Positions 11,968-31,187 of a DNA stretch of 47,306 nt are shown piece after piece; positions within the stretch are counted from its first letter, which is position 1; the number at the start of each line of letters is the position of its first letter. The notes under the pieces are model-generated. The model was not told where the DNA came from. It did no database searches and was given only the letters and a program-made list of their open reading frames with translations. Origin of the DNA: Nitrospira sp. (GTDB taxonomy: Bacteria > Nitrospirota > Nitrospiria > Nitrospirales > Nitrospiraceae). The DNA is taken from positions 1 through 47,306 of the forward strand of contig JAHBWT010000024.1 of assembly GCA_019636815.1 (NCBI GenBank), read 5' to 3'. The position numbers and the translations under genes are program-made.

Positions 11968-12033
11968 CCCTTCTTCATCTCACGCTCCCCTTACAACGTG
12001 ATGGATATCTGTACGATCGACAGAAGAACGCTG

Positions 12034-12213
12034 TCAGGAATCATAGTGTCCTCTGTCGAACGGAGCTCTTAGCAAGTTGATGAACGCCTCTCGGACTTTG
12101 CCAGAAACGTGGAGTCTCAGGCCGGGAAACGAGCCTTCGACCGTCTGGATGCGCCGGTCAAATAGGCGCATAATCTCCGAACAAAGACCGTCATCCTGCG
12201 ACCAGGCTGGCAT
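12034..12213 (-). CDS. Short hypothetical protein, 59 residues
   Basis: A minus-strand frame from ATG 12213 to TGA 12034 reads MPAWSQDDGLCSEIMRLFDRR...LRAPFDRG. The composition is that of a normal soluble protein. The ribosome site is weak. It lies upstream of the proline-rich and secreted small genes on the same strand. I recognise no family. The rest of the gap 11968-12320 shows nothing else. Confidence 0.35.
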   Translation of the reverse strand: MPAWSQDDGLCSEIMRLFDRRIQTVEGSFPGLRLHVSGKVREAFINLLRAPFDRGHYDS

Positions 12214-12320
12214 CGTCTGCCGGACTCACGTCATGTCTTGCCGATGACCGGCACCGGGAAGCTTAAGCGGTTCCCATCGATCGGACAGATGAACCGCGTG
12301 CATGTTGCGCAATTTAGATC

Positions 12321-13412: not shown

Positions 13413-13473
13413 GTTGTCGCACATCCTCACTACTCGGGAGCAATTGGGTCCAGAATACTCACTCGACGAGGCA

Positions 13474-13810
13474 CGAGCCCACGGATCTGTAGTGTCCGCG
13501 GCCGCAGGCAACGACGATCGCTCGCCGGTGGGTTTCCCAGCTTTGCTTTTCCTATGCATCGCCGTGTCGCGATGGGCCGGAAAGGTACCTTTCCTTCAGG
13601 CACGACTCACGGAGGTGCCGTGGCTGCTCCGTATGGAACCGACAAGAGAAATTTTCTGGCGGCATTCTCCGTGGGCACGGAAATCGATCTGACAGCTCCC
13701 GGTGTCGGTATTCTGTCGACGGTTCCTGGCGGCTATGCTGCTATGGATGGGACTTCAATGGCTTGCCCGGCTGATGTCACGCTAAAGCTTGCCGCCGAAG
13801 ACCGAACGTT
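13474..13810 (+). pseudogene. Remnant of a subtilisin-like (S8) serine protease
   Basis: The frame after CheB reads HGSVVSAAAGNDDRSPVGFPA. After a frameshift near 13545 it continues GRKGTFPSGTTHGGAVAAPYGTDKRNFLAAFSVGTEIDLTAPGVGILSTVPGG...DGTSMACP. The AAGND and GTSMACP (catalytic Ser) blocks of S8 proteases are present, but the catalytic Asp and His regions are gone and the segment after ACP is lost. It abuts the convergent SGNH hydrolase. No start or function remains. Confidence 0.75.
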
Positions 13811-13820
13811 TCCGGCCGTG

Positions 13821-14777
13821 TTAGCCCGGCAGACTATCGAGTTTTTTCGCAAAAACAGCAGTGACCAGCCTGAAGCCTTTCTTCGTGGGATGCAGTTCGT
13901 TGGCCCAGTATTCCTTGTAGTTGCCTCCCGATGAAAGCGTGCTTCGCAGGTTCACGTAAGAGACATGACCGAAATCAGGTAATGCGGTGACCTGCGCAAG
14001 CATCGTATTAAGACGGTCGATCAGTTCTTTCACGATCGCCTTCCGGACAGAGATCGCTTCGAAGCCTTTCTCGCGGAAGCCAGGCTCGAGCCATGGCCCT
14101 GGCAACAGCCACCATCCTCCCAGAAAACCACGTCCATCCGGCACCGGGTAGTCATAGCCGTGAATGAGGATCGGGATAGGACGCTCTGTCCATCGGCGGC
14201 AAATCTGCGTCAGCGCCGACAGGATGGTGATGTAGGCAATGCGTATGCGCTGATCGATGACGCCCTGAGCGATCTGCTTGTTTAGACCAGCCACCGCGGA
14301 AGCCGCATGATTGAGCAGCATGCCGAATTCCGGGCCCGCGACGTCATTCCCGCCGCCTGAGAGGAGAATCGCCTTGGGGATGCGGTTTTGGCGGAGCAGC
14401 TTTTCGATCCGGCGGGAAAATTCTTCGAGTTGCCCGTCGGCGTAGGCCATCTCCTCGACGCGGTCCCCCTTATGCGCCACAGACTCGACGTCGTAGCCGT
14501 AATCATCCTCCAGGAGTCCAAGGACATCCGTCCAAGGATAGTCGAACCATGAATCACCCTCTGCGACGATGATACCGGCCGAGCCGACGGCAGTCCTCAG
14601 GACTTTGGGAACAGAGACCGCCGCCATGACCCGTTTCTGTGTGGGTACAGACCTGGCGACGTGCATTGCAACGGCACGTGTCCGAGTTCGCAGCGCCTTC
14701 ATCCGAACTCTGATGACCTTGTCAGCCGACTGACGGCCGATTTCAAGAGCGCGAAGCGTCTCTTTGTCTTTCGCCAT
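13821..14777 (-). CDS. SGNH/GDSL-family hydrolase
   Basis: This is a 318-residue protein with SGNH blocks: GDSW at 74-77 (nucleophile Ser76), a glycine in AHKGD (about 104), GGGND at 141-145 (Asn144) and ELHP...GF near the C-terminus (catalytic His with Glu instead of the usual Asp before it). The family hydrolyses esters of lipids or carbohydrates; the substrate here is unknown. No signal peptide is visible. The N-terminal 60 residues are basic. An AAGGAGGT site precedes the ATG. A sigma-54-type promoter lies at 14841-14854 with a palindromic activator-like site about 210 bases further up. Confidence 0.8.
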   Translation of the reverse strand: MAKDKETLRALEIGRQSADKVIRVRMKALRTRTRAVAMHVARSVPTQKRVMAAVSVPKVLRTAVGSAGIIVAEGDSWFDYPWTDVLGLLEDDYGYDVESVAHKGDRVEEMAYADGQLEEFSRRIEKLLRQNRIPKAILLSGGGNDVAGPEFGMLLNHAASAVAGLNKQIAQGVIDQRIRIAYITILSALTQICRRWTERPIPILIHGYDYPVPDGRGFLGGWWLLPGPWLEPGFREKGFEAISVRKAIVKELIDRLNTMLAQVTALPDFGHVSYVNLRSTLSSGGNYKEYWANELHPTKKGFRLVTAVFAKKLDSLPG

Positions 14778-14840
14778 GCGGAACCTCCTTCATGAACTGC
14801 CAGGCCTCGTGCGGTCACTGTCACACCCAAGACTGCACCA

Positions 14841-14854
14841 GCAAATACTGCGCC
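14841..14854 (-). promoter_or_regulatory. Sigma-54 (-24/-12) promoter for the SGNH hydrolase
   Basis: On the minus strand AGGCGCAGTATTTGCT matches the sigma-54 consensus TGGCAC-N5-TTGC, with the invariant GG and GC separated by exactly ten bases. The predicted start of transcription, near 14829, leaves a 50-base leader before the ribosome site of the gene at 14777. The -24 block deviates at two positions. Confidence 0.6.
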
Positions 14855-15036
14855 TCATTTTCACCAGAACATGACGACACTCCATTCCGGGAAATTCATG
14901 TAGAGGTGTCCGTCCCGTTTGATCCAAGGCTCCTAAAACGGGCATCCGGCACCATCCCCACCACTGAACGCTACCATAAAATTTCATTTCAGTAGCCTCG
15001 AAGGGCAACGAAGTGCGGGTCTTCTTATCAACTTGC

Positions 15037-15072
15037 TGAATCCAAAGAGATTCACCTGAAGATAATTCTTCA
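15037..15072. promoter_or_regulatory. Enhancer-like palindromes upstream of the SGNH hydrolase
   Basis: TGAATC-CAAAGA-GATTCA at 15037-15054 is a perfect 6-6-6 palindrome. It is followed at 15057-15072 by a second palindrome, TGAAGA-TAAT-TCTTCA. The first is the same motif seen before the sensory operon (20295-20333). The distance of about 210-240 bases to the predicted transcription start suits a sigma-54 activator. The only downstream target in range is the SGNH gene. Confidence 0.6.
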
Positions 15073-15241
15073 ACATAGACGGCATGGCAATTCTTCGGAA
15101 TTCACTCCATTCGACAGCTTCACGCGTGGTCCCCACTTTACCGCATCGGCACAGCATCTCAGGGGCTTTCAGTGAGCAATATGGGCGAGACGGATCAAAT
15201 GCATAGTTCACCTACAGGGTCTTCTGGACTGAATTGTCTCT

Positions 15242-16693
15242 TCAAACAGAAGAGGGAGTGGTGGGCGGCCTTCCGGATATCTGCTTTTGGCGCAGCAGTT
15301 TAGTCAAGTAGGTTCGCTGTAGGCCGAGGTCAGCGGCCGCTTTCGTTTGATTCCACCCGTTCCGAATCAACGCATTTTCGATAAGCTTTCGACTCTGGGC
15401 ATCCATACTTTCATGATAAGAATGAAAAATGGTTTCACCGTCTGCAGACATGACCGGTTCCTGCCTTGGGCGGACGGGAGAATCAGGCAATAAAAGATCT
15501 TCCGGTTCGATGGTTTCTCCGGAGCATAAGACAAGAGCGCGAGAAATCACGTTCTCCAACTCACGGATATTGCCTGGCCAGGAATAGCGTTGCAACGCCT
15601 CCAACGCAGGGTCGCTGAGCACGTAACGCTTCTGAAGACCCAGCTTGACGGGCCGAGAATTGATGAAGTGCTGAGCAAGGGCGAGAAGGTCGTCCATCCG
15701 CTTCCGTAGCGGAGGCAGTGTGACCGTGATGACGGCAAGGCGAAAGTATAAATCTTCCCGGAATGTTCCTTGACGGATCACCTGTCTGAGGTCTTTATTC
15801 GTAGCGGCAACAACTCTGACGTCGACTTTAATCAACTTAGTCCCGCCCACCCTCGTGAATTGCTGATCTTGCAAAGCACGTAGGACTTTTGCCTGTGTGC
15901 TCATACTCATGTCGCCGATCTCGTCGAGAAACAATGTTCCGCCGTCTGCTTCTTCGAATTGGCCCCGCTTCATGGACGTGGCACCGGTGAAGGCGCCTTT
16001 TTCATGCCCGAAGAGTTCGCTCTCGATCAATGTTTCAGGAATGGCTGCGCAATTGACGGCCACGAATGGTTTGTGGGCGCGAGGACTCCAACGATGAATG
16101 GCGCGGGATAGAATTTCCTTGCCGGTTCCGGTTTCCCCAAGCAATAAGACGGTTGCGGTCGAAGCGGCCGCTTTTTTCGCACAAGCAAGTTGCGCAGTCA
16201 TCTCCTTGTTTGTGGCGACGATGGGGCCGAACTGGTCATCAACCTCCTTTCGAAGCTTATTGAATTGGTGATGGAGGGCGACGGTATCCAGCGCCTTCTT
16301 GATCACGACGGTCAAGTGATCCGCGGTAAACGGCTTGGGGACAAAGTCGAAGGCACCGAGTTGCATGGCCCGCACGGCAAGTTCGATGGTTCCAAATGCG
16401 GTCAGGATAATCATGAGAGGGGTCGTGTACGTACCCGAAATCTGTGGATTGCCCTCTGCTCTAGGTTGATTCAAATTTGAGGTCTCACGGACTCGTTGTA
16501 ATACCTCCATGCCGGATTCAGGCCCAAGCTTGAGGTCCAATAAGACGAGATCAGGCTCCTCTTCCCGGATCAGGCGGAGTGCACCCGCGACATCGGTGGC
16601 GATGAGGGGTTCATGCCCCATCCAGGTGACGCGATTCTCCAAGCTCATGCGGATATCATTTTCGTCATCGACAATCAGTATCTTGGCGTGCAT
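15242..16693 (-). CDS. NtrC-family sigma-54-dependent response regulator
   Basis: This 483-residue activator couples a phosphorelay to sigma-54 promoters. The receiver domain (1-125) has phospho-acceptor Asp53 and Lys120, with a small insert around 72-90. The AAA+ domain (about 155-390) has Walker A GETGTGKE (186-193), the sigma-54-contacting GAFTGA loop (233-238) and Walker B LFLDE (254-258). A Fis-type helix-turn-helix lies at about 440-475 (NALIRNGWNQTKAAADLGLQRTYLTKLL). It is the third gene of an operon with the binding protein and kinase. The kinase is 67 bases upstream, and a GAAAGGAC ribosome site precedes ATG 16693. It probably binds the TGAATC-N6-GATTCA sites in this window; that is inference. 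Confidence 0.92.
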   Translation of the reverse strand: MHAKILIVDDENDIRMSLENRVTWMGHEPLIATDVAGALRLIREEEPDLVLLDLKLGPESGMEVLQRVRETSNLNQPRAEGNPQISGTYTTPLMIILTAFGTIELAVRAMQLGAFDFVPKPFTADHLTVVIKKALDTVALHHQFNKLRKEVDDQFGPIVATNKEMTAQLACAKKAAASTATVLLLGETGTGKEILSRAIHRWSPRAHKPFVAVNCAAIPETLIESELFGHEKGAFTGATSMKRGQFEEADGGTLFLDEIGDMSMSTQAKVLRALQDQQFTRVGGTKLIKVDVRVVAATNKDLRQVIRQGTFREDLYFRLAVITVTLPPLRKRMDDLLALAQHFINSRPVKLGLQKRYVLSDPALEALQRYSWPGNIRELENVISRALVLCSGETIEPEDLLLPDSPVRPRQEPVMSADGETIFHSYHESMDAQSRKLIENALIRNGWNQTKAAADLGLQRTYLTKLLRQKQISGRPPTTPSSV

Positions 16694-16760
16694 GGGGGTC
16701 CGTCCTTTCGGAGAGCGGCTTCTCTGCTACAGGAAAACATGGCTATACGCGGCGAATTGC

Positions 16761-19064
16761 TTATGTGGTCTGGCCTGTCTCATTCAGCGGTCCGGCAATC
16801 GGGAGCGTGAAGGAAAAGCGTGATCCGGCCTCAGGTTGACTTTCCACCCAAATCCTCCCGTGATGCCGCGCGACCAGAGTTTTTGTGATGTACAGCCCCA
16901 ATTGGGCGCCTTGTGATGCAGGCATGGCCGACGGGACCTCGGAAAACTCATCGAAGACATACGGGAGGTGGGAGGAATCGATTCCGCAACCGGTGTCGGC
17001 GACACACGTCTGTACGAAGCCTGATGAGCCTACCGTAAATTCGACCGTGACACGGCCGCCTGATGGTGTGAATTTGATCGCATTTCCGATGAGATTCACC
17101 AGGATCTGCTCCAATTTGTCGGGGTCACCTTGGACCAAAGGAAGATTCTCGATCGGCGCGACGGCCAGGGACACCCGGCTATCCGACGCGACGGTTTCCA
17201 AACCTTCGGCGACGATCGTTGCAATTTGGCCGATGCAGACATGTTGCAAGCGAAGATGGTCGGAACGTAGCCAATCAAGCAATTCTTCAGCCAATCTCGC
17301 CAGTCGAGCGACGCTGTGTTTGATTCGTGTGAGATAGATACGCTGCTGTTCGGTGAGCGGCCCCGTGACGCCGTCAAGCATGTTTTCCACGAAACTCCAA
17401 ATCGCCGTCATCGGAGTCCGCAGCTCATGCGAAACGACTTTGACGTACTTTGATCGGCGTGTGTCGTGAGCCTGAAGCTGTAAGTTAGCGAGTGACAACT
17501 CTGCCGTCCGTTGCGCGATGCGCTCCTCGAGATGCTGAGTGAGTTCGGTCAGTTCGGAATAGGCCTTGGCATTGTCGATGGCGGCGGCGACGTGGCCGGC
17601 AATCGTCAGCAGGATGTGGAGATCCTCTTCGGTGCATTGGTGAGCGCCTCGGTCTCCGCCGAGGTATCCGAGGATCCTGGCATGGCTCTGGAGCGGTACG
17701 GCGACGAACGACCGCACTCCTGAATGGCGCATCAAGTCGAGCACGGGCGGATACATGCGATGAGCGATGGTTTCGACGTCGCGGATCAGGACTGGTTTAC
17801 CGTGAATGATGAGTTCAGCGGTGATACTATCGCTAACGACAGGTATATCCAACCTGTGACTTGCCTCCTGAACCTCGGGCGCAAATCCAAGACTTTGAGC
17901 GATGGACGCGCAGTTCCGTTCCGGATGGTGAAGGAACACGACCATCCGGGAAAAGCCAAGATTCTCGACGAGCAGGTGGAGCACCGAGTCCAGCAGTTGA
18001 TTCATGTCGAACATGTTGGCGTTCGCGATCGCGGTGCTGGCCTGATGGACCGTGGTCAGTTGTTTGATTTGCTTCCTGATCGTATCGAGGTTCATGGTGA
18101 TCGCATTATTGCGATCATGGAGGGATTGAATCATCACGTTGAACACGTGGGTCAGCTCACCTACTTCGTCGTTGGTGGATGCCGTGAGTCGAACCGGCGC
18201 ATCGTTTCCTCCCGCCAGTTGCCGGGCGGAGTGGGCGAGGCTTCTGAGCGGCGTCGTAATGCGTGAGGTGAGCAGGTGAGCGCCAAGGATGCCTAGTGCA
18301 ATAATGACCATCGTCAGAATCGAAACATTCTGGACGATGGCGAGTAGCGCTTGTTTGGATTGCGCGTCGGTGATTCCGATGCGCACGAGGCCGAGCACCG
18401 GAGAAAATGGGATTGGGGTCATCGAACCTTGTTTCTCTTCCAATTCGACTGAAAGGCGGGACGGGGCGGTTTCAGACGAGGGTTCCCGAAGGACCGGCAT
18501 CGCAAAGTCAAACAGGGTTTCTTTGCGCATGAGAAAAGGGAGAAGCCAGTCTGCAAACTGGTCTTGAGGAACCAATGTCTGTTCTGCAGACAGAACGAGT
18601 TTGGTCATGAGCGGAGCGGTCAGCGGAGTCTGGAGCAGTGATTCTGAGATGCGGTCATCCGGGTAGAGCGGCTGTTCCGTGGTGAGAGAGGACCCGTTCA
18701 ATGTCCTCCGCATTCGTTTGCTTTGCCGCTCCAAGATACGACCGTCCGCGGAGGTGATGGTCACGTAGACGACGTGGTCGATTGTCATAAGACTTTGTAT
18801 GAATTGATCAAGCGTGCTGCGATCTTCGAGCACGACACCGGCGATCCGAAAGTGATCGTTCCGAACGGTATTGATCAACAAGATGTTTCCGAGCTCTTCC
18901 AAGTTATCGGTCATGGCCTGGCGTCTTGTTTCGATGAAATACCAGCTTAGGGACGAACAGGCCATGACGAGAATGAAGCTGAACAGGCACACGAACTTCA
19001 AGCGAAGGCCGAAAAACCGAGCTGTGGACTCCGATTCCCGCCTGTCCTGAAGGTGTGTGTCCAT
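16761..19064 (-). CDS. Membrane sensor histidine kinase with HAMP and GAF domains
   Basis: It autophosphorylates and passes phosphate to the neighbouring response regulator. From the N-terminus: a transmembrane helix (about 25-45), a periplasmic sensor region of about 200 residues, a second helix (about 242-263), HAMP, a GAF-like domain, a coiled coil, HisKA with SHELRTPMTAIW (phospho-His) and HATPase with N box NAIKFTPSGG, DTGCGI and a GLYITK G2 box. I chose ATG 19064. A TTG at 19079 overlapping the upstream stop (TTGA) is an alternative that would give translational coupling. The signal may be sensed through the binding protein encoded just upstream. Confidence 0.9.
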   Translation of the reverse strand: MDTHLQDRRESESTARFFGLRLKFVCLFSFILVMACSSLSWYFIETRRQAMTDNLEELGNILLINTVRNDHFRIAGVVLEDRSTLDQFIQSLMTIDHVVYVTITSADGRILERQSKRMRRTLNGSSLTTEQPLYPDDRISESLLQTPLTAPLMTKLVLSAEQTLVPQDQFADWLLPFLMRKETLFDFAMPVLREPSSETAPSRLSVELEEKQGSMTPIPFSPVLGLVRIGITDAQSKQALLAIVQNVSILTMVIIALGILGAHLLTSRITTPLRSLAHSARQLAGGNDAPVRLTASTNDEVGELTHVFNVMIQSLHDRNNAITMNLDTIRKQIKQLTTVHQASTAIANANMFDMNQLLDSVLHLLVENLGFSRMVVFLHHPERNCASIAQSLGFAPEVQEASHRLDIPVVSDSITAELIIHGKPVLIRDVETIAHRMYPPVLDLMRHSGVRSFVAVPLQSHARILGYLGGDRGAHQCTEEDLHILLTIAGHVAAAIDNAKAYSELTELTQHLEERIAQRTAELSLANLQLQAHDTRRSKYVKVVSHELRTPMTAIWSFVENMLDGVTGPLTEQQRIYLTRIKHSVARLARLAEELLDWLRSDHLRLQHVCIGQIATIVAEGLETVASDSRVSLAVAPIENLPLVQGDPDKLEQILVNLIGNAIKFTPSGGRVTVEFTVGSSGFVQTCVADTGCGIDSSHLPYVFDEFSEVPSAMPASQGAQLGLYITKTLVARHHGRIWVESQPEAGSRFSFTLPIAGPLNETGQTT

Positions 19065-19075
19065 GATCGGACCTG

Positions 19076-20002
19076 TCAATACGTCTCGTCGATATGGCTG
19101 TCGAACTCTTTCGGAAGCGTGATGCCCAGATACCGTGCCATTTTCTGATTCACCGTGATCTTGACCCGGTGAACGGAGACCGGCCTGAGCGGCAGTTGTT
19201 CGCCGTTCACAATCCGTTTGGCAAGAAGGCCGGCTTCACGGCCGACTTCTCCGTAATCGATCGAGATGCTGAGCACCGCACCGAGACGTGTAAATTCTGA
19301 AGAGAACCCGACGACGGGAACCCGTTTGGCTACCGCCGATTCTAGAATAAAGCGAATCGATTCATCCGTCAGGACAGTCGAGTCCGGAATGAGCCATAGG
19401 GCTTCTGATTCTGATAAAAGCGACCGTAGTTGCTGCGGAACCTCTTTCTCGTTTTTGACCGGAAACCTCTGCAATTGAAACTCATGGATGGCGGCTTGGG
19501 ATTCTGCCTCCTTCAGCTTGGCCGCAGTCTTGTCGGGGCCGTAGATCACACCGATCCGGCGAAGGGCGGGTAGGAACGAGCGCATGATCTTGAACTGACG
19601 ATCCATCGGAATTTCCAGCAGGACACCGGCCATATTGGCGGTGGTGAGATGGTATTTCAAGGGATCGAGAATCATCAGGTAAAGAATCGGAATGTCCGTA
19701 ATTTCAAGCTTAGCCGCCAGCGCTGCCTTGAGACCGACGGCAACCACGAGCGAAGACGTCGAAGCGCGGATTGTCCTGGCCAGTTGCTTTCCCCGGTCCA
19801 GATCGCCCCGCAGGTCGTACTCGGCGTAGATCGAAGCCCCGGGCGCCGTCACCTTGAACCCTTCGATCGCGTCGTTATAGGCTTTAAGGTCGGATGATTT
19901 CAGGATGGCAATCTCTACCCCGGCGGCATGAGCGCTCGTAGGGGCAATGGACCAGAGAGCGGTGAGCATGAGAGACAGCAGCCACGTGTGTGAGAAGCGC
20001 AT
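19076..20002 (-). CDS. Periplasmic ABC-type substrate-binding protein (PF04392-like)
   Basis: This 308-residue protein has a signal peptide (MRFSHTW...APTSAHA) and a two-lobed binding fold resembling the TrpX/ABC_sub_bind family: VVAVGLKAALAA, PILYLMILDP, RRIGVIYGPD, ALWLIPDSTVL, RVPVVGFSSEFTRLGA. No ABC permease or ATPase is nearby. It is overlapped by the histidine kinase gene, so it likely acts as the periplasmic ligand receptor of the two-component system rather than in transport. The ATG at 20002 gives the cleanest signal peptide; TTG 20044 or ATG 20041 would extend it by 13-14 residues. It is the first gene after a sigma-54 promoter. Confidence 0.85.
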   Translation of the reverse strand: MRFSHTWLLSLMLTALWSIAPTSAHAAGVEIAILKSSDLKAYNDAIEGFKVTAPGASIYAEYDLRGDLDRGKQLARTIRASTSSLVVAVGLKAALAAKLEITDIPILYLMILDPLKYHLTTANMAGVLLEIPMDRQFKIMRSFLPALRRIGVIYGPDKTAAKLKEAESQAAIHEFQLQRFPVKNEKEVPQQLRSLLSESEALWLIPDSTVLTDESIRFILESAVAKRVPVVGFSSEFTRLGAVLSISIDYGEVGREAGLLAKRIVNGEQLPLRPVSVHRVKITVNQKMARYLGITLPKEFDSHIDETY

Positions 20003-20188
20003 TCCTATCTGTTCACGGCGGGTATAAAGAAGAGAGAGCATCAATACGCCGTTCGAGCAAAGATCATGGAGTCTGTGACCAAAGCATTGGTCTTGTGCAG
20101 CCGAAACGTTGAGACTCGGACGAGATGTTATCTTTCTGTGCGCAAACGTATCCGATTGAGAACGTTGCCGTTGTAATATTGTGATACA

Positions 20189-20379: not shown

Positions 20380-21138
20380 CTATTTGGCATGGCTCTGAAT
20401 GGAACTAAGATCCCAGTCCGCTACACCGTGCAGGCCGACTTGTCGTAGCAGGGCGGCACGCATCCTCCGAAGTGATGGGTCTCTCGGATCTTTCGTGATC
20501 AACGAGCAGAGGCAGTCCACCGCGTCGTACCAAAGTCCCATCATGGCATTGGTCCGCACACTCTCACGATCGCAGTTCATATTTGGCGAGGCGATCGTCA
20601 GACATTCGCTGAACTCACAGCGTTCGATCATTCCGCCCGCGACGATATCTTGAGAATGGGAGTCGGGATTGCGACGAGCGGAAACGAACCATCGGTACTG
20701 AACATTGGGCTCAAGCACAAGTCCCAGAGCCTTGAGATCGATAGACTGAACCCCGGCGTCAACGGGTGTGGGGAGCGGGCCTTCGTAGACCGGACGTATT
20801 TTCTGAGTGTCGTTGAGCGTGAATCGTAGAGGATAAGTCGTCAGTTTCGAGAGATACCAACTGAGCGTCGGTGTCTGCTTGACGGTCAAACCGACATGAT
20901 CGGGCACCAAGGCGACGATTTCGGGTTCATTGCCCTCCGGTCCCCGCAACGCTCCCCCGACACGTGCACGGGGAGTCAACTTCTTTGGCGGAGTATAAAG
21001 AGGAATCGACAGGTCGTCCTGCTGATCTGCCGACGGCGCGGTCGGTTTGTCTGCGGCAGCAACGATTGCTTGCGGTCCAATAAGGGTCAGGACGAGGCTC
21101 AATGCTGAGATTGGTAGGGAACTCATGGCAAATCGCAT
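20380..21138 (-). CDS. DUF928-family secreted protein
   Basis: This is a 252-residue protein with a signal peptide (MRFAMSSLPISALSLVLTLIGPQAIVAAA). The mature part has the pattern I associate with DUF928: PPKKLTPRARVGGALRG, VALVPDHVGLTVKQTPTLSWYLS, VQYRWFVSARRNPDS, and a C-terminal helical segment with AMMGLWYDAVDCL. The family is best known from cyanobacterial clusters with CHAT and haemagglutinin-type proteins; its function is unknown. The ATG at 21138 follows a GGAGGG site, 11 bases after the CHAT gene's stop, so it is the last gene of the TPS operon. Confidence 0.75.
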   Translation of the reverse strand: MRFAMSSLPISALSLVLTLIGPQAIVAAADKPTAPSADQQDDLSIPLYTPPKKLTPRARVGGALRGPEGNEPEIVALVPDHVGLTVKQTPTLSWYLSKLTTYPLRFTLNDTQKIRPVYEGPLPTPVDAGVQSIDLKALGLVLEPNVQYRWFVSARRNPDSHSQDIVAGGMIERCEFSECLTIASPNMNCDRESVRTNAMMGLWYDAVDCLCSLITKDPRDPSLRRMRAALLRQVGLHGVADWDLSSIQSHAK

Positions 21139-21149
21139 GGGCCCTCCTT

Positions 21150-23492
21150 TCATAGCCAATTGTTCAGAAGGAGAAATGACGACCAGTAGGCCGGATGCGC
21201 GTACACTCGGTCGCTCAAAAGTTTCATCTGTGCGCGCTGGAGCGCGACGGCTTTCGACAGGGATGGGTTGCGCAGGTGACGATAAAATTCGGAGATCAGC
21301 GTTGCCGACGCTTCGTCGTTGATGAACCATAGCGTAGCCAACGCGCTCCGGGCTCCGGCCTTCAGTGCAACGCCGGCCAGGCCAAGGGCGGCGCGATCGT
21401 CACCGACGCCTGTCTGGCACGCGCTCAAGGTCAAGAGTTCGAGCGGCTCTTGCCGGAACCGAAAGAGGCCAACCAGTCGATCAAGCGTCTGCATCGTCAG
21501 TTTCCCATCGAACGTCAAGAGAAACGAATCGTTCACGTCGGCAGAGAACTTGCCGTGTGTCGCAATATGCAAGGCCCCATAGCGTCCATCGCGCAATTCC
21601 TGTTCCAACCTGGGCGTCTGAAAGGCGTTGTTGATGAGTTGATCGCTCGTATAGAGCTGCTTGATCGAGGCGACTTCCTCCGCGACGTAGGGAAGGGGAG
21701 GAAAGCCCTGTACGGATTTCGTGAGGCCGACGGCGAGGAAACGCAGCTTGTCGCGGTTCAACGGTCTGGGGTCGGTCAAGGTAATGCCCGGAGTCAAGGC
21801 AAGGGCGAACTTATTGATCAGGAAAGCTGAGCCGTCGTGGAGCGCCGCCAGTGGAATGGTACGCAGGGAGCTGTCCGGTACGAAGACCAAGGTGGTGATC
21901 TGCGGTTGCACAAGGTCCGTTTCCAACGGGCGCACGAGCCAATCGTACAACTGTTGTGCGTGGGGCAGATATTCCCGAGTGGTCCGTTTTTCCACCACTC
22001 GGCGGAATGCCCGAATTTCCTGGGTCAGCCGATCGGCAGTCACGGGCACCGAGATACGTTTAAGCCCCGAGGGCAGGCTTAGGAGCAGTTCCAGACGGGA
22101 AGTGAACATAATGGGATAGACGACGGCAGTGTCCGGTGATAACTGATCGAACGTCGTCACCTTGGAGCGAACGGCGTCGACACAGTCATCCTTGAAATAG
22201 TCTCGCAGTTCGGCCGTCTTGTACGCCTCAATCGCATCTCGCGCTGCGAGCAGATAGCCCTCGGCTGCTTGACTCTCCTCCGTGAGCGATGCCCGCTGGA
22301 GCAAGAGGTCGGCCAGCTCGAAGAACATCGGTTTCATGACTTCCTGATCAGCTAGAAAATCTTCGGAAGATGCGCGCGCGACCTCCACGCGAATCGGTTG
22401 GAGCGTGGACGCCGCTTGTCGGTAGGCGGCGATGGCGTGATCCAATTCTCCAACAGCGGCCAGCTGCCGCCCTAACTGCCATTGCCAGCGGTAAAGTGAC
22501 TCGGGCGCGTCCACCGATTGCGCCGCGAACAATGCTTGCCTAGTGAGTCGGAGCGCTTCGTCCAGGCGAGACTCTGTCTCGTAGAGATGACCGAGATACC
22601 CAAGGGCATAAGACCGGGTTCTCCTGTCGCCCAACCGCTCAGTGACCGTGGCCGCTTCCTGGAGCATTCCCGCAACCCTCAACAAGAGAGAATCATGTAT
22701 CTGGGGTAGCTGTGAGGCGAGACGCTGGTAGACCAGAGCCATGCCGATCAATCCGAGCGATTTATTCCGGGAGGGTCCAACGTCCTTCAACTCATCGAGC
22801 GCTGCGTCAAGAGCCATGCGGCTATTGACCGGTTGATCCAGATGCAGCAAGACCCGCGCCGCATTGGTGCGGCCGGTGGCGGAAAGCAGTGGCAAGCCGG
22901 CCTTTTGTGCGAAGCGTACGCTTTCATCGAACGCATCCAGCGCATCCTTGTCTTGCTGCTTCAACACGAACAGGATGCCGAGATCGTTCAGCATAGCGGC
23001 CATGTGCGGGAAAGCGTCTTGCTTCCGCGCTAAGGCCGTTGCTTGATGGAGGTATTCCGATGCTTCGACAAGTTGCCGCAGTGTCAAGTAGGCGCGTCCC
23101 AGATGACCGAGGACGGAGGCTTCAGCGAGGGGATCGCCACCCTCCTGTGCGAGCGCAAGTGCCAGTTCCAAAGACTGGAGCGCGTATCTGGATTGCCCCA
23201 ACGCCATCGAAGCCTGAGCAGAGAGAGTGAGCGCCTCGACTTGCGCAGGAGTATTCCCGATACCTTTATAGGAATCCGCAGCCTGTTTCCAATGAGACAA
23301 GGCTTCGCCGAATGCTCCGCGTTCAAAATGCTGCCCGCCTTCCTTCATCAAGGTGTCGCCGGGAGATGACGGTTGATGCGATTCTGATCGCGTGACGGCG
23401 AACAGCAGAACTATGACGAAGAAGAGAAGACTGATTCCGCGCAGAATGAAACGCATGAGTGGTCGAGCGCATTCTGATGTTGCGTGGTTCAT
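21150..23492 (-). CDS. Secreted TPR-CHAT caspase-like protease
   Basis: CHAT domains are caspase-related cysteine peptidases. This 780-residue protein has an N-terminal hydrophobic segment (MRFILRGISLLFFVIVLLF, about residues 13-31), an array of TPR repeats (about 50-400) and a C-terminal CHAT domain (about 480-780). The likely catalytic His (about 646) is in ALHIATHG and the Cys (about 692) in TLSACQTG, both intact. I chose ATG 23492, three bases from the TpsB stop. A later ATG at 23456 would start directly at the signal segment. Export would place the protease in the periplasm beside the two-partner secretion system. Its target could be the TpsA exoprotein or the transporter, which is inference. 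Confidence 0.88.
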   Translation of the reverse strand: MNHATSECARPLMRFILRGISLLFFVIVLLFAVTRSESHQPSSPGDTLMKEGGQHFERGAFGEALSHWKQAADSYKGIGNTPAQVEALTLSAQASMALGQSRYALQSLELALALAQEGGDPLAEASVLGHLGRAYLTLRQLVEASEYLHQATALARKQDAFPHMAAMLNDLGILFVLKQQDKDALDAFDESVRFAQKAGLPLLSATGRTNAARVLLHLDQPVNSRMALDAALDELKDVGPSRNKSLGLIGMALVYQRLASQLPQIHDSLLLRVAGMLQEAATVTERLGDRRTRSYALGYLGHLYETESRLDEALRLTRQALFAAQSVDAPESLYRWQWQLGRQLAAVGELDHAIAAYRQAASTLQPIRVEVARASSEDFLADQEVMKPMFFELADLLLQRASLTEESQAAEGYLLAARDAIEAYKTAELRDYFKDDCVDAVRSKVTTFDQLSPDTAVVYPIMFTSRLELLLSLPSGLKRISVPVTADRLTQEIRAFRRVVEKRTTREYLPHAQQLYDWLVRPLETDLVQPQITTLVFVPDSSLRTIPLAALHDGSAFLINKFALALTPGITLTDPRPLNRDKLRFLAVGLTKSVQGFPPLPYVAEEVASIKQLYTSDQLINNAFQTPRLEQELRDGRYGALHIATHGKFSADVNDSFLLTFDGKLTMQTLDRLVGLFRFRQEPLELLTLSACQTGVGDDRAALGLAGVALKAGARSALATLWFINDEASATLISEFYRHLRNPSLSKAVALQRAQMKLLSDRVYAHPAYWSSFLLLNNWL

Positions 23493-23494
23493 CG

Positions 23495-25303
23495 TTACAA
23501 TGCCTGGACCACCACTTGCAGATGAATGCCATGGTCTTGAAGGTTGCCGGTCGGATGGGGTACATGATTGAGCGGTACGCCCCAATAGAGTTCGAATCTG
23601 GCTCGGTCTCGAGGCAATACGTTCCAGCGGATGCCGAGACCAACGCTGGCGAGCGTTTCGGGATCCGGCGTGCTGTCACGCGATATCCAGGACCGTCCGA
23701 CATCAACGAACTGAGCAAACTGCACCATGTCTTCGCCGCCTGCAAACTTGAGCAGGGGAATTCGGCTTTCCAGGGAGGCGATGAACCCGTTGTCCCGGAC
23801 CAGCGTGTTTTCCCGATAGCCGCGCACGCTGAAGCGCCCGCCCAGCGGGATCTGTTCGAGCGGAAACAACCGGTTGTTGCTGAGCTGGAGATCCAGCCGT
23901 CCTAGTATCTGCCAGCCTCCCCACTGATCGAGACGTTTCACTGCCTGCAATTGCCCCAGCCAGGAGACGAACCGGCCGCTGGGCAGCGGATCGCCCTCGG
24001 GGGTTCGCACCTCGCGCGAATTGATCGTGGCGCCTAGGACGTCGAAACCCACACTGACGCGGGAACGGACCGCAATCACGGACGATGGAGTCCGGTGCTG
24101 GTATTCCTGAATGAACCGAAGGGCGCTGACGGTGTTCACACCGGTGTCGGACGACCCAGGGACAAAAATGAATGGCTGACCAGGTAAGTCAAAGGCCGAG
24201 GTAATCTTGTTGTAGAGATGCTCGCCAGTGATCGCAACGGCCAGTTCGTCGGTCAAACTTCGATAGATCGGTTGCCGGAGCGTAAAGCCGATGATTTCCG
24301 CCTCGGAGTTCAAGTCTAAAACACGAAACGTGTCGTCAACGACGAGAAATTCGTTTCGGCGATAGGATGTGGTGAAGGTCGTATCATAGCGGTTCAGTGG
24401 CAGGCTGTAAGAGACGTCGATGATCGGATGCACCCCGCGTGAGCCTCCGTAGGTGAGGGTGAGGGGATCTCCATGACCCGTCACGTTGAGGTGCGCCATG
24501 GTGATCAGACCTCGCTCTGCACCCACAGTCGGCGTCTGGTAGTTATTGAAATCCAACCACATTTTCCACGGACTGGCCTCTTTGACCTTCACGCTGAGGA
24601 CGCTTTCGCCGCGCTGGTCACCCGGTCGGAGTTCGGCATTGATCCGTTCAATGCGGGGATCTCGCTGGAGCAATTGCAATCGCTCTTGGATCGGTTCAAG
24701 TTTCAGAGGCGGGCGGGCGCCCAGGGCCACCCGGTCGCTCAAGTAACCGCGCCGGAACCAGTTAGTCCCTTCGACGTCGATTTTAGTGAGCGTTCCCTCA
24801 ATGATCTGCAATCGAATCACACCATCATTGACGTCTTGATCGGGAATGACTGCACCGGACGTGATGTAGCCCTTATTGACATACAAGAGCGTCAACGCGA
24901 GCCGCAGACGCTCCAAATCTTCGGTCGTCAAGCTTCGATTCGTAGACGGCTCGGTAATGGCTTCGATTTCTTCGTCCGAGAAGACGGTATTGCCGGTGAC
25001 CTCGATTGCCTTCACAAACACGCGTACCTGACCGAGTTGTCTCTGAGCATCGCCGTCGGGCGGTGTCGGAGGTACCACCGGGAGGGTGGGGCTTGGTACT
25101 GGCGTAGGCGGTTTGAATTCTTTCTTTAACGGAGCAGGCGGCTCGCCGGATCGGAGCGTGGGGTCGAAGATCGGAGGAGCGACTTGAGCTGAGAGCGGGG
25201 AAAAAGTCGCGATGATAGTCATGGCCAGACCACAGGAGAGAAAGGCTTGGGCGATGAACCGGCGCCGAGTTCCTCGAGCCGGATCGCCAGTGCCAACCGT
25301 CAT
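23495..25303 (-). CDS. TpsB outer-membrane transporter of two-partner secretion (ShlB/FhaC/HecB family)
   Basis: This 602-residue protein moves the TpsA exoprotein across the outer membrane. After a signal region (about 15-40) comes a proline-rich linker (about 45-85), POTRA domains (VKAIEVTGNTVFSDEEI at about 95, then VIRLQIIEGTLTKIDVEG) and a C-terminal beta barrel ending in an aromatic/hydrophobic strand (HGIHLQVVVQAL). RGYRENTLV matches the conserved barrel motif of this family. Its ATG overlaps the TpsA stop (ATGA), so the two are translationally coupled. The CHAT gene starts immediately after its stop. Confidence 0.92.
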   Translation of the reverse strand: MTVGTGDPARGTRRRFIAQAFLSCGLAMTIIATFSPLSAQVAPPIFDPTLRSGEPPAPLKKEFKPPTPVPSPTLPVVPPTPPDGDAQRQLGQVRVFVKAIEVTGNTVFSDEEIEAITEPSTNRSLTTEDLERLRLALTLLYVNKGYITSGAVIPDQDVNDGVIRLQIIEGTLTKIDVEGTNWFRRGYLSDRVALGARPPLKLEPIQERLQLLQRDPRIERINAELRPGDQRGESVLSVKVKEASPWKMWLDFNNYQTPTVGAERGLITMAHLNVTGHGDPLTLTYGGSRGVHPIIDVSYSLPLNRYDTTFTTSYRRNEFLVVDDTFRVLDLNSEAEIIGFTLRQPIYRSLTDELAVAITGEHLYNKITSAFDLPGQPFIFVPGSSDTGVNTVSALRFIQEYQHRTPSSVIAVRSRVSVGFDVLGATINSREVRTPEGDPLPSGRFVSWLGQLQAVKRLDQWGGWQILGRLDLQLSNNRLFPLEQIPLGGRFSVRGYRENTLVRDNGFIASLESRIPLLKFAGGEDMVQFAQFVDVGRSWISRDSTPDPETLASVGLGIRWNVLPRDRARFELYWGVPLNHVPHPTGNLQDHGIHLQVVVQAL

Positions 25304-28300
25304 GAGCGGCAGCCTGTGGATCCAATCGCAAACGTCCGAACCAAAAATCCGGGCGGCGTCAGCCGTCGAAGGGACACGATCTCTGTCTCAGTCACCGGTG
25401 CAGTCGCACGCAAACCCGTCGCATGCTCGGGACCTTCTCCAGTGACATGATCTATCGAAATAGGGCTATTGAGCCATCCGCCCGGTTGGGAGGGGAGGGC
25501 GTCACGTCCGGCGACGATAAAGGTGCTCTGTTCCCCGCCGGCAAGCGCGGCGCAACGGTTGTACAAGAGGGCTTGCGTGTTGCTCGGTTTCGACGGGAGC
25601 TGCGTGACCGTGCCGCTCAAGTTCGACGTGGGGGACTGAATCGTCACCGTGCCGTTCACGCCAAATTGTGATGACGCATCGACGAGACTTGCAGGGTCGG
25701 CCAGGAACAGCGGCGTTGTAATCGTGATGTTGCCGCCGTGTCCTTGGACCGCTTGTGCAAGGACCTGGCTGTTTTGCAGAATAACCACGTTCGGATCGAT
25801 CGTGATGTTGCCGCCGTTGCCGCTGTCGGCACCGACTGAAGCGCTGACCTGACTGTTCACGAACCGGATACGATCGATGGCGCGAATATCGATATTGCCG
25901 CCGCTGGCTTGATCGGCCTTCGTTGTGATCAAACCGTTCTGGACATCAAGTTGCTGACCGGCATCGATCAAGATATTACCTGCGTCGCCGGGACCAGTAC
26001 TGCTGGCGGAAATGCTTCCGCCGCGATTCAACTCGACCGACCGATCTGCAATGATTATGATATTTCCGCCCCTGCCTGATGATCCAAATTCAGAGGTGCT
26101 AAGAATGGCTGTTGGCGTTACGGCGCCTGCCGGATCAGTGAATCGTCCGGATAAGGCCATGTCTGTGACAGCAATAAGTATGTTTCCACCGTTACCTGTG
26201 CCGACCGATGTCGAGCTGACAATTTGGCTTCCACCGGAAAGTGCCAGGCCATTCGAGGCAATTGAAATGTTTCCCGCATTACCATTTTCAAACGTAAGTG
26301 TGCTTACCATGGCATGATCAGCCAAGGTGATTGTCTGAGCGGACATCTTGATCGAGCCGACGTCAGATAAGAAACCACTGACGCGTACATCAGCCCCACG
26401 TGTTAAGTTGATCGAATCCGTAGCGAGGAGAGAAAGTTTAGGTTGTGCCGAAGGGGTTGGGTCAAAAAACGTGGTGCTTCTGATCCAGGCCCCGTCTGTA
26501 ACAATCAAGTCTTTCGAGTCGATGACAATATGGCCAGTGCCCCCATTTCCAAAGTTCTCATTCATAATCCGGCTCGGTGTACCGTCTGCTCCAATGCCGG
26601 TAATGGAGACAGCGTCCTTTGCGTTAATTGTGATAGTTCCAGACTGCTTGACATCGCTCCCACTTGTCTGAACTGAACCACCGCCGGTGACCGTCAAGGT
26701 ATCAGTGGTAAGGGCAATATCGCCGGCGCGTCCAGTACCAAAGGGAATCGTTTCAATCATTCCTTGGTCGTGAAGCACGATAGACCGCGCAGTGACAGAG
26801 ATAGAGCCACCATCTCCCACTGATTCTGGCTTGCTTCTGATAGCACTGTTTGCACCAAACGTATCTATTCCAGAAATCGAAAGTGAGTCGGTAACTACTG
26901 CAATGTCTCCAGCCTTTCCATTCCCGCGTGTCTCGAATGTGACAAAGTCTAGTCCTGAACCGGTGAATATTCGTCCGCCGGTTTTGAGGCCAATTTCCCC
27001 TGAATCAATGGAGACGCTGCCTCCTGCTCCGTCACCTGATGTGAATGTGGCGATTCGACCCGTATCTTCGACAGTGAGTCGCGGGGCAACAATAGTAAGC
27101 GCTCCGCCAACTCCCTCTGTGGAGGTATTGCTGAAGACGCCACTCGCCATCACGGGAAGATCGCTGGCGATTCCGGTGAGCGTGCCAGTTGTATCGAACC
27201 CGGAAATGGTCAGAGAATCCGTCGCGGCGATATGGACCGACCCTGCGGATCCGTTCCCGTCGGTACTGCTGGCTATTTGTGCACCGCCGACAAGTGCGAT
27301 AGACGAGGCATTCACGGAAATATTGCCACCGGCTCCTTCGCCGACCGCACTGCTTCTCAGCAGGGCACCCTCCATGGCCAGGTGACTGGAAACCAGTTGA
27401 ATGCTCGCTCCTGGATCGGCCCCAGAGTTCGATGTCACGATCGAACTTTCTCTCATAAGACTGATCGTATCGGAGGAATCGGCATTCTCGGTGGTGGTGA
27501 GCAGAGCATCATTTACAGTGATGGCGAACTGGCCGCTGCGAATGGAGACTGTACCCTTGTCGTTGATATTGATGTTTGAGCCCGGAGTCAGAACGATGAC
27601 CCCAGACGACTTGAACGATGTGTCATTTACATTCGCACGTGGCTGAAGAGTCGCGGCATCAAACTCGCCGGGAGATGTAGTGCTGGCTAATTGAACCTTG
27701 CCTTCTGGTGCAGAGAGGCGTGCAGGTTGGACAGTGCCGCTATTCAAAGTTCCTGATTCAATTGTGACGTTTCCTCCAATCAGAGAAATTCCCATACCGT
27801 TTGATACGGTAAGTTGACTGCCTTGAACCGTAATCACTCCTGGATTAGATCCGAGGAATCCAAATGCTGCGACAGGGGAGGCGCTTAATAAGGCGTCTGC
27901 GGTTGTGCTTGGAATGGCGTTAAACTTCGCACCGTCATTGAGCCTCAAATGGTCTGCCGATGTGAACGTGACCATTCCACCAACGTTCAGCGTCGCATTT
28001 GGCCCGAATAAGAATCCTGCTGGATTGATGAGGAATAGATTGGCATTCCCAAAATCAGTGGTTTGAATTGATCCATAGATATTTGAGATGTTGCCGTCGG
28101 TAATGCGACCTAATATGTTGGCTGTCGGAATCCCGGCATCATTCTGAAAATTTGCAATACTGTTATGAGGGACCCCGAATTGACCAAAGCTATGAAACAG
28201 GTTCGTTCCGTCTCCAGGTCTTGTTCCACCGGTGATATTAAATTGAGTTTTCCCCCCAACAGCGATCGGTCCGCTGACCTGCGTGTTTAATCCGGATGGC

Positions 28301-28428
28301 GTGATGGGAATGGTTTGAGCTCGAGCGCTATCCACACAGGGGCTGAGAGAAACAGTCCAGAGTAACAGAATGGGGACAGTGCAGCTCCTTCGACTGAAAA
28401 GTACGGTTTGGCATGTAGCCCCATACAT
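25300..28428 (-). CDS. TpsA filamentous haemagglutinin-like exoprotein
   Basis: This 1,042-residue secreted beta-helical protein is the substrate of the adjacent TpsB. A signal peptide (about 1-38, ending DSARAQ) leads into the TPS secretion domain (about 40-250), with NLFHSFGQF and NLFLINPAGFLFGPNA at about 130-145. The rest is a repetitive beta-helix of GGNI, GGSIS and AGNI motifs rich in Gly, Ser, Thr and Asn, with almost no cysteine. The end is proline/threonine-rich. I chose ATG 28428; an ATG at 28491 would add 21 residues before the signal peptide. Large exoproteins of this type act in adhesion, biofilm or contact-dependent competition. I see no toxin domain at the C-terminus. Confidence 0.9.
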   Translation of the reverse strand: MYGATCQTVLFSRRSCTVPILLLWTVSLSPCVDSARAQTIPITPSGLNTQVSGPIAVGGKTQFNITGGTRPGDGTNLFHSFGQFGVPHNSIANFQNDAGIPTANILGRITDGNISNIYGSIQTTDFGNANLFLINPAGFLFGPNATLNVGGMVTFTSADHLRLNDGAKFNAIPSTTADALLSASPVAAFGFLGSNPGVITVQGSQLTVSNGMGISLIGGNVTIESGTLNSGTVQPARLSAPEGKVQLASTTSPGEFDAATLQPRANVNDTSFKSSGVIVLTPGSNININDKGTVSIRSGQFAITVNDALLTTTENADSSDTISLMRESSIVTSNSGADPGASIQLVSSHLAMEGALLRSSAVGEGAGGNISVNASSIALVGGAQIASSTDGNGSAGSVHIAATDSLTISGFDTTGTLTGIASDLPVMASGVFSNTSTEGVGGALTIVAPRLTVEDTGRIATFTSGDGAGGSVSIDSGEIGLKTGGRIFTGSGLDFVTFETRGNGKAGDIAVVTDSLSISGIDTFGANSAIRSKPESVGDGGSISVTARSIVLHDQGMIETIPFGTGRAGDIALTTDTLTVTGGGSVQTSGSDVKQSGTITINAKDAVSITGIGADGTPSRIMNENFGNGGTGHIVIDSKDLIVTDGAWIRSTTFFDPTPSAQPKLSLLATDSINLTRGADVRVSGFLSDVGSIKMSAQTITLADHAMVSTLTFENGNAGNISIASNGLALSGGSQIVSSTSVGTGNGGNILIAVTDMALSGRFTDPAGAVTPTAILSTSEFGSSGRGGNIIIIADRSVELNRGGSISASSTGPGDAGNILIDAGQQLDVQNGLITTKADQASGGNIDIRAIDRIRFVNSQVSASVGADSGNGGNITIDPNVVILQNSQVLAQAVQGHGGNITITTPLFLADPASLVDASSQFGVNGTVTIQSPTSNLSGTVTQLPSKPSNTQALLYNRCAALAGGEQSTFIVAGRDALPSQPGGWLNSPISIDHVTGEGPEHATGLRATAPVTETEIVSLRRLTPPGFLVRTFAIGSTGCRS

Positions 28429-28551: not shown

Positions 28552-29400
28552 TTACTTGATATAGACACCCACACAGCCAGAGTTGGGGAAATAGATTCCC
28601 AGGCAACCTTCACGTCCAGGACCGATCTGCTTCAAGACCGTGTCGAGAAGCGGTGTGGCCGTCGGCTCTGGGTCACTCTGTCCCCCACAGATAGGGTCAT
28701 AGTCAGTGTCAGACTCAGTTAGACACATAGGAGGATCTTGAGGAAATGCTTGATTGTGGTATTTCATAAATGGGTTGGTTGTGCGGAAATCCAGTGTGCT
28801 GCCGGCAGTAAGGTTTTCGATGTTGAGGTCTACCTCCAGTGTTCGCGCCCCGCTAAAGTTGGGTGCTTGTGGGGCTGGTGTCTTGGTTTTATTGATATTT
28901 GCTCCTTCGGACCACATATGAGTAAGCGACGACGTCAAGAGGATATTTCCCGAGGAATCCTTCAATCTGTATGTAGCGGTGATTTTGTTGGGACTGACGG
29001 CAGTCATCTTTCCGTATAAATGTGGTTTGTAATATACATTTGGTGGGGAGTTGGGTCCGGAGTCGAACTGCTTTTTGAATATGATGTGGAAATTTGTCAG
29101 AGTCGTATTTGCGGTGATCAATGCGTTCTTGATTGTGAGAATGTCGGAAGCGCTATCGACCCCTTCTGTAATGACCCTGGCTTTGTTGCTTGCATCTAGG
29201 TCTGTGATGGTGATCTGAGGAGTCGCGGAGGGGCAGTGTGTTGCAATCAGAACCTGGGTTAGTCCCGGTGTCAATGCTGGGCTGCATGTCAGACCGTTGA
29301 TATTGACCGTAATATTGCCTGCCGCCAGCACGGTAGAGTGAACGTTCGCCATTGCGAAGAGTAGAAACGCTATTATCAACCAACCTCTAGACCTCCTCAT
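28552..29400 (-). CDS. Secreted hypothetical protein
   Basis: This is a 282-residue protein with a clear signal peptide (MRRSRGWLIIAFLLFAMANVHSTVLA-A). The mature part is beta-rich with several Asn/Thr/Pro stretches (NITVNINGLTCSPALTPGL) and Cys residues spaced to form disulfides (two near the N-terminus, four near the C-terminus). An AAGGAGGG site precedes the ATG at 29400. It lies just upstream of the TPS operon on the same strand. I recognise no family. A surface or matrix role is possible but unproven. Confidence 0.7.
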   Translation of the reverse strand: MRRSRGWLIIAFLLFAMANVHSTVLAAGNITVNINGLTCSPALTPGLTQVLIATHCPSATPQITITDLDASNKARVITEGVDSASDILTIKNALITANTTLTNFHIIFKKQFDSGPNSPPNVYYKPHLYGKMTAVSPNKITATYRLKDSSGNILLTSSLTHMWSEGANINKTKTPAPQAPNFSGARTLEVDLNIENLTAGSTLDFRTTNPFMKYHNQAFPQDPPMCLTESDTDYDPICGGQSDPEPTATPLLDTVLKQIGPGREGCLGIYFPNSGCVGVYIK

Positions 29401-29690: not shown

Positions 29691-31187
29691 TCATTCCTCT
29701 CGTAAATCAGATGGTTCAGCAGGAGGTGAATTATCGAGATAAAGTCGGTCGCTGAAGCGGGACACTTGGCCAGCCGTCTCATTTAATACCCGCAGGTTAT
29801 TGTCGATTGATGTACCCGCAGAAGATCCCGTAGGAAACGGATCCGAAGGGCTCGACCACATGTTGACAAACCACGCGGGTTTGATCGGAACTCCCATGAT
29901 TGTGGCCTCATGGCTGCTCTCGTTCACATATCCATACCCGTATCCAGTAAGGGGAGGACCCCCTCGCCTCTCAACATCGGCGCGGTCATGGTCTGCCCCC
30001 ATGACATGCCCTAATTCATGGTGAAATGTGAGAAAGTTGGCGGCGCAATTCCGTCGCACAACAGAGAAGGCCCAGTTTTCTGGATCTGCGTAGTTATAAT
30101 CCCATGTTCCTGATGACACCCATTTCATAGGTCCGTAAGATTCGCCACATGGTTCCGGATTGTCATACTCCACCCATAGACTGACGACGTCTGCCTTATT
30201 GTCACGACGCCATTGATGAACTTGATTGAGAAATGGGTCTGTCGGTCCCCCCTTTCCTTGGAGGTAACTTAAGTCTGTGTTAACACTATGTTGAGGGTAG
30301 TCCACCTCATTGACATACACCAGACGGAATTCTAACTGGCTATTCGGACCCAGACTACTATTGGCTTCTCCGACTGCCACAAGAATGTTGTCCGTAATCA
30401 GACACAGCTTGCACCAGTCCTCTACAGTGGTTTTTGCTTGTTTGGTGTAGACAACCATCACATCGACTTTCGTTTTTTGCCCCGTCTGAACCTGGATTGT
30501 TGAGGGAAGCGGCAGCGTCAGTTTGTCTGCTTGAGGGGTGATCCTAGCGGGTGAAGAACTACGACGTTCCTTAGGTGACTTGTCTGGCATACGCGGTGAT
30601 CTATTACGTACACGGGGTGGCGTATCGGCCACATAGAGTTGGGGATCCACCTCGACAATCGAAATGGTCGCGCGACCAACCGGACGAATATCATAGATGT
30701 GCCCTTGATACCTGATTGTCCCAGAAATCGCCTGATCTCGCTCTCTAACGATGAAGACGGCCTCACTGGAGGCATCGCCGTTTATTCGTCCTATCCAACT
30801 CAGGCGAGCAATGGTTCCCTCTGGTCCAGCGAATTTCTGGACAGTGCTCGGCGGTTTTACAGGGAAAAACTCACGACAGTCCATTGAGGAAGTCAGAGGC
30901 AGGCAGACTCTGGTGATACCCTTGAGTCCAGCAGAAACTATATTCCAATCTAACTGCGCAATTCTTAGATGTGCTCCCGGTAGACCATCTGGCGAAGAAC
31001 GGGAGAAATTGCCAGCTTGAATTTCGTCATCCGACAGATCGGTAAAGATCGACTGTACGGTTTGTCGAACTTTTGGAGGATCTCCATAGGCAAGTTGTCT
31101 GTAGATGGAAGTTCCTCCATAAAGGGCATCAATGATCAATAAAGTTACTATAAAGATTGAAAGGTCGAAAGGGGGCATTCTTCTCAC
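29691..31187 (-). CDS. Secreted zinc metalloprotease (metzincin-like)
   Basis: This 498-residue protein has an N-terminal hydrophobic segment (about 8-22), a long pro-region (about 40-235) and a catalytic domain (about 236-470). The zinc site HELGHVMGADHD at 390-401 fits HExxHxxGxxH(D), with His390, Glu391, His394 and His400, as in reprolysin-like or peptidyl-Asp-type metzincins. Four cysteines occur around 259-262 and 347-381. The start is a GTG at 31187 behind an AGGAGAG site. It lies in a run of minus-strand secreted-protein genes, so it may process extracellular proteins together with the CHAT protease. Confidence 0.82.
   Translation of the reverse strand: MRRMPPFDLSIFIVTLLIIDALYGGTSIYRQLAYGDPPKVRQTVQSIFTDLSDDEIQAGNFSRSSPDGLPGAHLRIAQLDWNIVSAGLKGITRVCLPLTSSMDCREFFPVKPPSTVQKFAGPEGTIARLSWIGRINGDASSEAVFIVRERDQAISGTIRYQGHIYDIRPVGRATISIVEVDPQLYVADTPPRVRNRSPRMPDKSPKERRSSSPARITPQADKLTLPLPSTIQVQTGQKTKVDVMVVYTKQAKTTVEDWCKLCLITDNILVAVGEANSSLGPNSQLEFRLVYVNEVDYPQHSVNTDLSYLQGKGGPTDPFLNQVHQWRRDNKADVVSLWVEYDNPEPCGESYGPMKWVSSGTWDYNYADPENWAFSVVRRNCAANFLTFHHELGHVMGADHDRADVERRGGPPLTGYGYGYVNESSHEATIMGVPIKPAWFVNMWSSPSDPFPTGSSAGTSIDNNLRVLNETAGQVSRFSDRLYLDNSPPAEPSDLREE

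Follow-up and report, generated by a model that had tools for sequence, protein, structure and literature searches.

Why does a gene for a caspase-like CHAT protein sit next to a two-partner secretion (TPS) pair and a DUF928 gene in Nitrospira sp.? The window, that is, the whole stretch of 47,306 nt that was analysed, carries the four genes on its minus strand. The exoprotein gene tpsA (25300..28428) encodes 1042 aa with a secretion-type N-terminus, a TPS domain (PF05860, 2.4e-36; TIGR01901, 3e-18) and beta-helical repeats, and is followed by tpsB (23495..25303), whose 602-aa product combines a POTRA_2 match (1.8e-22) with a ShlB barrel (1.2e-26). Then come the genes of a 780-aa TPR-CHAT protein (21150..23492; TPR_12 and CHAT, PF12770, 7.2e-58) and of a 252-aa DUF928 protein (20380..21138; PF06051, 1.8e-32), both predicted to be exported. 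Reading of the sequence located an ATGA overlap between tpsA and tpsB (25303-25300), two bases between the tpsB stop (23497-23495) and the ATG of the CHAT gene (23492), and 11 bases containing AAGGAGG between the CHAT stop (21152-21150) and the DUF928 ATG (21138). The initial annotation had proposed a single operon, and these junctions, the Pfam matches obtained for all four products and the tight spacing in relatives, where the TpsA/TpsB junction is -4 in at least nine loci and the TpsB/CHAT junction -4 or -1 in many, bear this out; promoter and terminator scans gave no excess over chance. Judged by hydropathy, a secretion-like hydrophobic stretch opens each of the four proteins. A TPS-domain TpsA adjoining a TpsB with POTRA domain and ShlB/FhaC barrel, both identified by Pfam, is the gene content of type Vb secretion, from which TpsB-dependent export of TpsA is predicted. 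The term 'fused' used in the earlier description is loose here, where the genes are separate; true TPS-CHAT fusions occur at other loci. Just upstream of tpsA lies a gene (28552-29400) for a 282-aa protein with an export-like N-terminus, without Pfam or NCBIfam match and with one relative among the fetched loci; further upstream, there is a reprolysin-type metallopeptidase gene (29691-31187), of which no relative was found beside related loci.

Downstream of the operon, also on the minus strand, are genes for an ABC_sub_bind-type binding protein (19076..20044), a sensor histidine kinase with HAMP, GAF and HisKA domains (16761..19079) and, adjoining the kinase, a sigma-54-activating response regulator (15242..16693); the first two are frequent neighbours in Nitrospira. 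The binding-protein gene is likely to be its own transcription unit. A perfect sigma-54 consensus (TGGCAC-N5-TTGC, 10/10, at 20203 on the minus strand) precedes this group, with partial matches in some relatives, which suggests that the three genes may regulate themselves. Such neighbours invite the reading that TpsA is a surface sensor and CHAT a signalling protease acting on other envelope targets, coupled to the kinase and binding protein in Nitrospira or to CHASE2 and sigma genes in cyanobacteria. Sensor and regulator genes do recur beside the module, and Craspase and separase are regulated proteases; yet the regulators vary by lineage and are missing at other loci, and it is the binding-protein gene that the sigma-54 site precedes, not tpsA, before which the window has none and the relatives offered two isolated 9/10 matches. 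We therefore regard a sensing role as very unlikely.

The idea that the four genes form a conserved module had been suggested with similar sets of cyanobacteria in view, and the loci retrieved here sustain it far more widely. In 59 relatives, counting the window genome itself, CHAT was found in 35, TPS in 31 and DUF928 in 27. On contigs of sufficient length, all but a few of the CHATs scoring about 192-207 bits adjoin TPS and DUF928 genes, and a second, weaker-scoring CHAT group in Nitrospira does not lie beside them. The order TpsA-TpsB-CHAT-DUF928 is kept in about 20 Nitrospira loci, often with the binding protein and kinase next. In the window genome, TpsA-TpsB-CHAT genes occur once more on contig C25 (L127), where the end of the contig truncates the set, and contig C74 has an unrelated TPS pair (L128) that lacks CHAT. 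When 84,980 species genomes were scanned, with loci chosen by similarity to TPS-linked CHATs, 79 loci were obtained, spanning Nitrospirota, Cyanobacteria, Desulfobacterota, Gammaproteobacteria, Myxococcota, Alphaproteobacteria, Methylomirabilota, Acidobacteriota and Verrucomicrobia; because many of them are metagenome bins, single phylum labels may be wrong. Among the 54 loci with at least 14 kb of sequence, TpsA or its C-terminal module was present in 46, DUF928 in 33 and any partner in 50. Gene order and orientation differ across phyla, so that the linkage has been kept despite rearrangement. On annotated cyanobacterial plasmids the same gene set occurs with CHASE2 and other regulators, and the genome of Calothrix sp. 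PCC 7103 alone gave 51 TPS, 46 CHAT and 22 DUF928 matches.

What distinguishes the TpsA of these loci is its C-terminus. Residues 935-1042 of the window protein (25303..25626, minus strand), with Cys959, Cys1040 and a GRDALP motif at 974, have no Pfam or NCBIfam match and constitute a previously undescribed module, which marks the TpsA subtype that partners CHAT. A profile of 52 positions built from the last part of the window TpsA, centred on a Cys, S-x-F, a frequent GR[DG]xLP and L-x-SP, gave matches confined to TpsA C-termini or to the spot just before a fused TPR-CHAT. In 78 of 82 distinct module-bearing TpsA proteins the tail contains exactly two cysteines, typically 85 residues apart, and most have the terminal one 1-3 residues before the end; the body is free of Cys in 67. 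The window protein thus has a C-terminal Cys pair, as do anchors of the HMW1/HxuA type, and we predict a Cys959-Cys1040 disulfide and a C-terminus kept in the periplasm. A cut at the GR[DG] motif would fall within the presumed disulfide loop. Its Arg can be discarded as the cleavage residue in general, since it is found in about 83% of sequences and the motif is missing from two CHAT-adjacent TpsA (L096, L113). The tail also sets TpsA apart from contact-dependent inhibition proteins: a conserved module, followed downstream by TpsB and CHAT genes, stands in place of a variable C-terminal toxin with an immunity gene.

Among intact Nitrospirota TpsA, CHAT lay within 10 kb of 21 of the 31 with the module and of none of the 16 without it, a difference (Fisher 4.5e-6) computed as if these related genomes were independent, which they are not; part of the linkage inside one genus is due to shared ancestry. 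It had been stated that absence of CHAT from most related TPS loci would refute the proposed gene module, and that absence describes the TpsA without the C-terminal module and not the ones that bear it. The second subtype, exemplified by positions 5813-10261 of L128, is about 1450 aa long, ends in KRGVVIQVDVKPQ, mostly lacks Cys and never adjoins CHAT. Another locus (L130, 1-17870) carries several tandem module-bearing TpsA genes with no neighbouring TpsB or CHAT; a number of exoproteins may share a single exporter and protease. In cyanobacteria, 37 of 41 open reading frames of unfused TpsA bear the module, and each one read lacks CHAT within 10 kb; the module may accordingly serve TpsB or anchoring only, and CHAT may act in trans or not at all.

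We then considered the protease candidate. Its CHAT domain (21168..21962, minus strand; PF12770) retains, as had been claimed, the catalytic-type His (H642/H646; H646 codon 21557-21555) and Cys (C692, codon 21419-21417), and alignments with relatives show no substitution at the equivalent positions (17/17 and 50/50). The claimed export signal is likewise matched by an N-terminal hydrophobic segment (mean hydropathy 3.3 over 14 residues), and a segment of this kind, located upstream of the TPRs, was found in 93 of 98 full-length standalone relatives vs 14 of 315 control windows. Since matches of the window CHAT sequence in the PDB cover the TPR only, folds were compared, using a model (pLDDT 84.7) of the natural fused tail of a Desulfococcaceae protein (HSG8, L180), which is related to the window protein at about 37% identity. 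The model matched the Craspase TPR-CHAT with a Z of 28.7 over 580 residues and separase with a Z of 25.3; DdvA, a transmembrane anti-sigma factor (PDB 8rw5/8rot), was among its other fold matches. The window CHAT is thus most likely a putative periplasmic cysteine protease with a predicted separase/Craspase-like fold. The TpsA module part of the same model was disordered (pLDDT below 50 at residues 54-124) and no docking of the module on CHAT was visible in it, so that the model neither supports nor denies docking. A known defence system was rejected, PADLOC giving weak TPR/BovA matches only, and the locus is not of CRISPR type III-E, as the adjoining genes are TPS and DUF928 instead of Cas7-11/gRAMP.

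Protease and exoprotein are joined in one protein elsewhere. In four loci a single, Pfam-confirmed open frame runs from TPS domain through repeats and module to TPR-CHAT: Desulfonema magnum (L177), Desulfobacterales HSG16 (L179), Desulfococcaceae HSG8 (L180) and Acaryochloris marina (L093). Among 39 evenly sampled cyanobacterial genomes, 9 contained open frames with both TPS and CHAT, 17 frames in all; the His motif was present in all 15 fusions read and an LSAC-type Cys motif in 14, and none of the 15 had the TpsA module. In the Desulfobacterota and Acaryochloris fusions the first module Cys is kept and the terminal one mostly lost; fusion to CHAT, as judged from these sequences, removes the terminal Cys or the entire module. 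An apparent TpsB-CHAT fusion (L150) was discarded, owing to an unresolved codon (X) at the junction. In the Acaryochloris locus (11569-17390) the fusion gene is followed by two toxin-activating lysine-acyltransferase genes and a gene for a calcium-binding protein. A natural TPS-CHAT fusion of Acaryochloris has the accession WP_261892134.1.

These fusions bear on what CHAT does. As CHAT is the C-terminal domain of TpsA in them, and secreted caspase-like domains can be C-terminal toxins (PMC3482391), CHAT could itself be cargo, an effector exported by TpsB and placed like a CdiA toxin. We find this quite unlikely, because standalone CHATs lack a TPS domain and have their own export-type N-terminus (93/98), the CHAT part is not polymorphic but conserved, and the recurrent partner is DUF928 rather than a variable immunity gene. 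Alternatively, a periplasmic CHAT could guard the pore, clearing stalled or misfolded TpsA in the manner of DegP instead of maturing it. DegP does degrade blocked HMW1 and FhaB (PMC5422565), the CHAT gene lies directly behind tpsB, and DUF928 and the TPRs could serve client recognition; the fusions and the tie to one TpsA subtype, however, argue for a dedicated role, and we consider quality control unlikely.

DUF928, the remaining partner, was modelled with AlphaFold2 (pLDDT 83) as an Ig-like sandwich with C-terminal helices, whose best PDB match was the C-terminal domain of MtxA (4z29). The same 11 of the 39 sampled cyanobacterial genomes had DUF928 and above-cut-off TPS, and of 34 DUF928 genes on large contigs, 12 lay within 3 kb of CHAT vs 0.65 expected. 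Neither TPS nor CHAT was found within 10 kb of 26 of 72 cyanobacterial DUF928 genes, and DUF928 is therefore not confined to the module. Across 118 Desulfobacterota genomes, DUF928 was found in 1 and TPS in 5, making DUF928 too rare for an association test. A literature search conducted largely outside subscription journals retrieved no paper that combined any two of CHAT domain, two-partner secretion and DUF928; DUF928 did appear in a paper on WD40 proteins.

On balance, we slightly favour a two-partner secretion system that encodes a protease of its own, in which a periplasmic CHAT acts on the anchored TpsA C-terminus. TpsA would pass TpsB and probably be held in place by its C-terminus, where a loop of about 80-85 residues, closed by the Cys pair, could act as a plug, as in HMW1/HxuA. 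The exported TPR-CHAT protein would recognise this tail through its TPR solenoid and cleave in or beside it, and in this way determine if the adhesin remains anchored or is let go; DUF928 would be an accessory of the periplasm or envelope, possibly serving as adaptor, and in some lineages CHAT fused behind TpsA would replace the plug. The earlier suggestion that the protease processes the exoprotein is thereby sharpened by the C-terminal module and consistent with the fusions. Operon pairing and single-protein fusions suggest a built-in way to cut or release a surface protein, although we infer the protease activity of CHAT, its TpsA substrate, the anchoring and the regulation. A broader proposal, which we put forward tentatively as possible, is a branch of two-partner secretion whose exoproteins end either in a Cys-loop plug cut by a separase-like protease of the operon or in the protease itself as a self-releasing plug, with DUF928 as dedicated partner. 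Such a widespread branch, whose operons, and often whose exoproteins themselves, include a protease of the separase/Craspase fold, would offer a testable job both to the uncharacterised DUF928 family and to exported TPR-CHAT proteins, which are common in cyanobacteria and Nitrospira.

Maturation protease genes apparently lie outside TPS operons and several such proteases are unidentified according to a review of these systems (PMC5422565), and for type V toxins a 2012 survey (PMC3482391 Table 1) gave HINT as the sole processing protease. The job proposed for CHAT is that of LapG in Pseudomonas aeruginosa, a periplasmic cysteine protease that cuts the C-terminal tail of the TPS adhesin CdrA (PMC5422565, PMC4694147). 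LapG, however, is transglutaminase-like and not of clan CD, and LapG-CdrA has no CHAT, DUF928 or gene fusion; its c-di-GMP control was not seen at the Nitrospira operon, which is not classed as a Lap system because its protease is a CHAT. Proteolysis of the TpsA C-terminal region, proposed here, takes place in stages in FhaB/FhaC of Bordetella (PMC8263021), where DegP, CtpA and SphB1 belong to protease families other than CHAT. In HMW1/HxuA of Haemophilus influenzae a disulfide-bonded C-terminal anchor locks TpsA in the TpsB pore (PMC5422565), resembling the Nitrospira Cys pair by description; those systems are described without CHAT or DUF928, and the Nitrospira-type cysteines are about 85 residues apart. 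Polymorphic toxins with caspase-like release peptidases likewise place a caspase-like domain in secreted multi-domain proteins. The TPR plus caspase-like His-Cys fold is common to the window CHAT family, the Craspase TPR-CHAT (Csx29) and separase, but the latter two act inside the cell, in CRISPR defence and chromosome separation, whereas the TPS-linked CHATs have an export-type N-terminus and TPS neighbours. The Nitrospira gene set is a variant of two-partner secretion and not a new kind of system.
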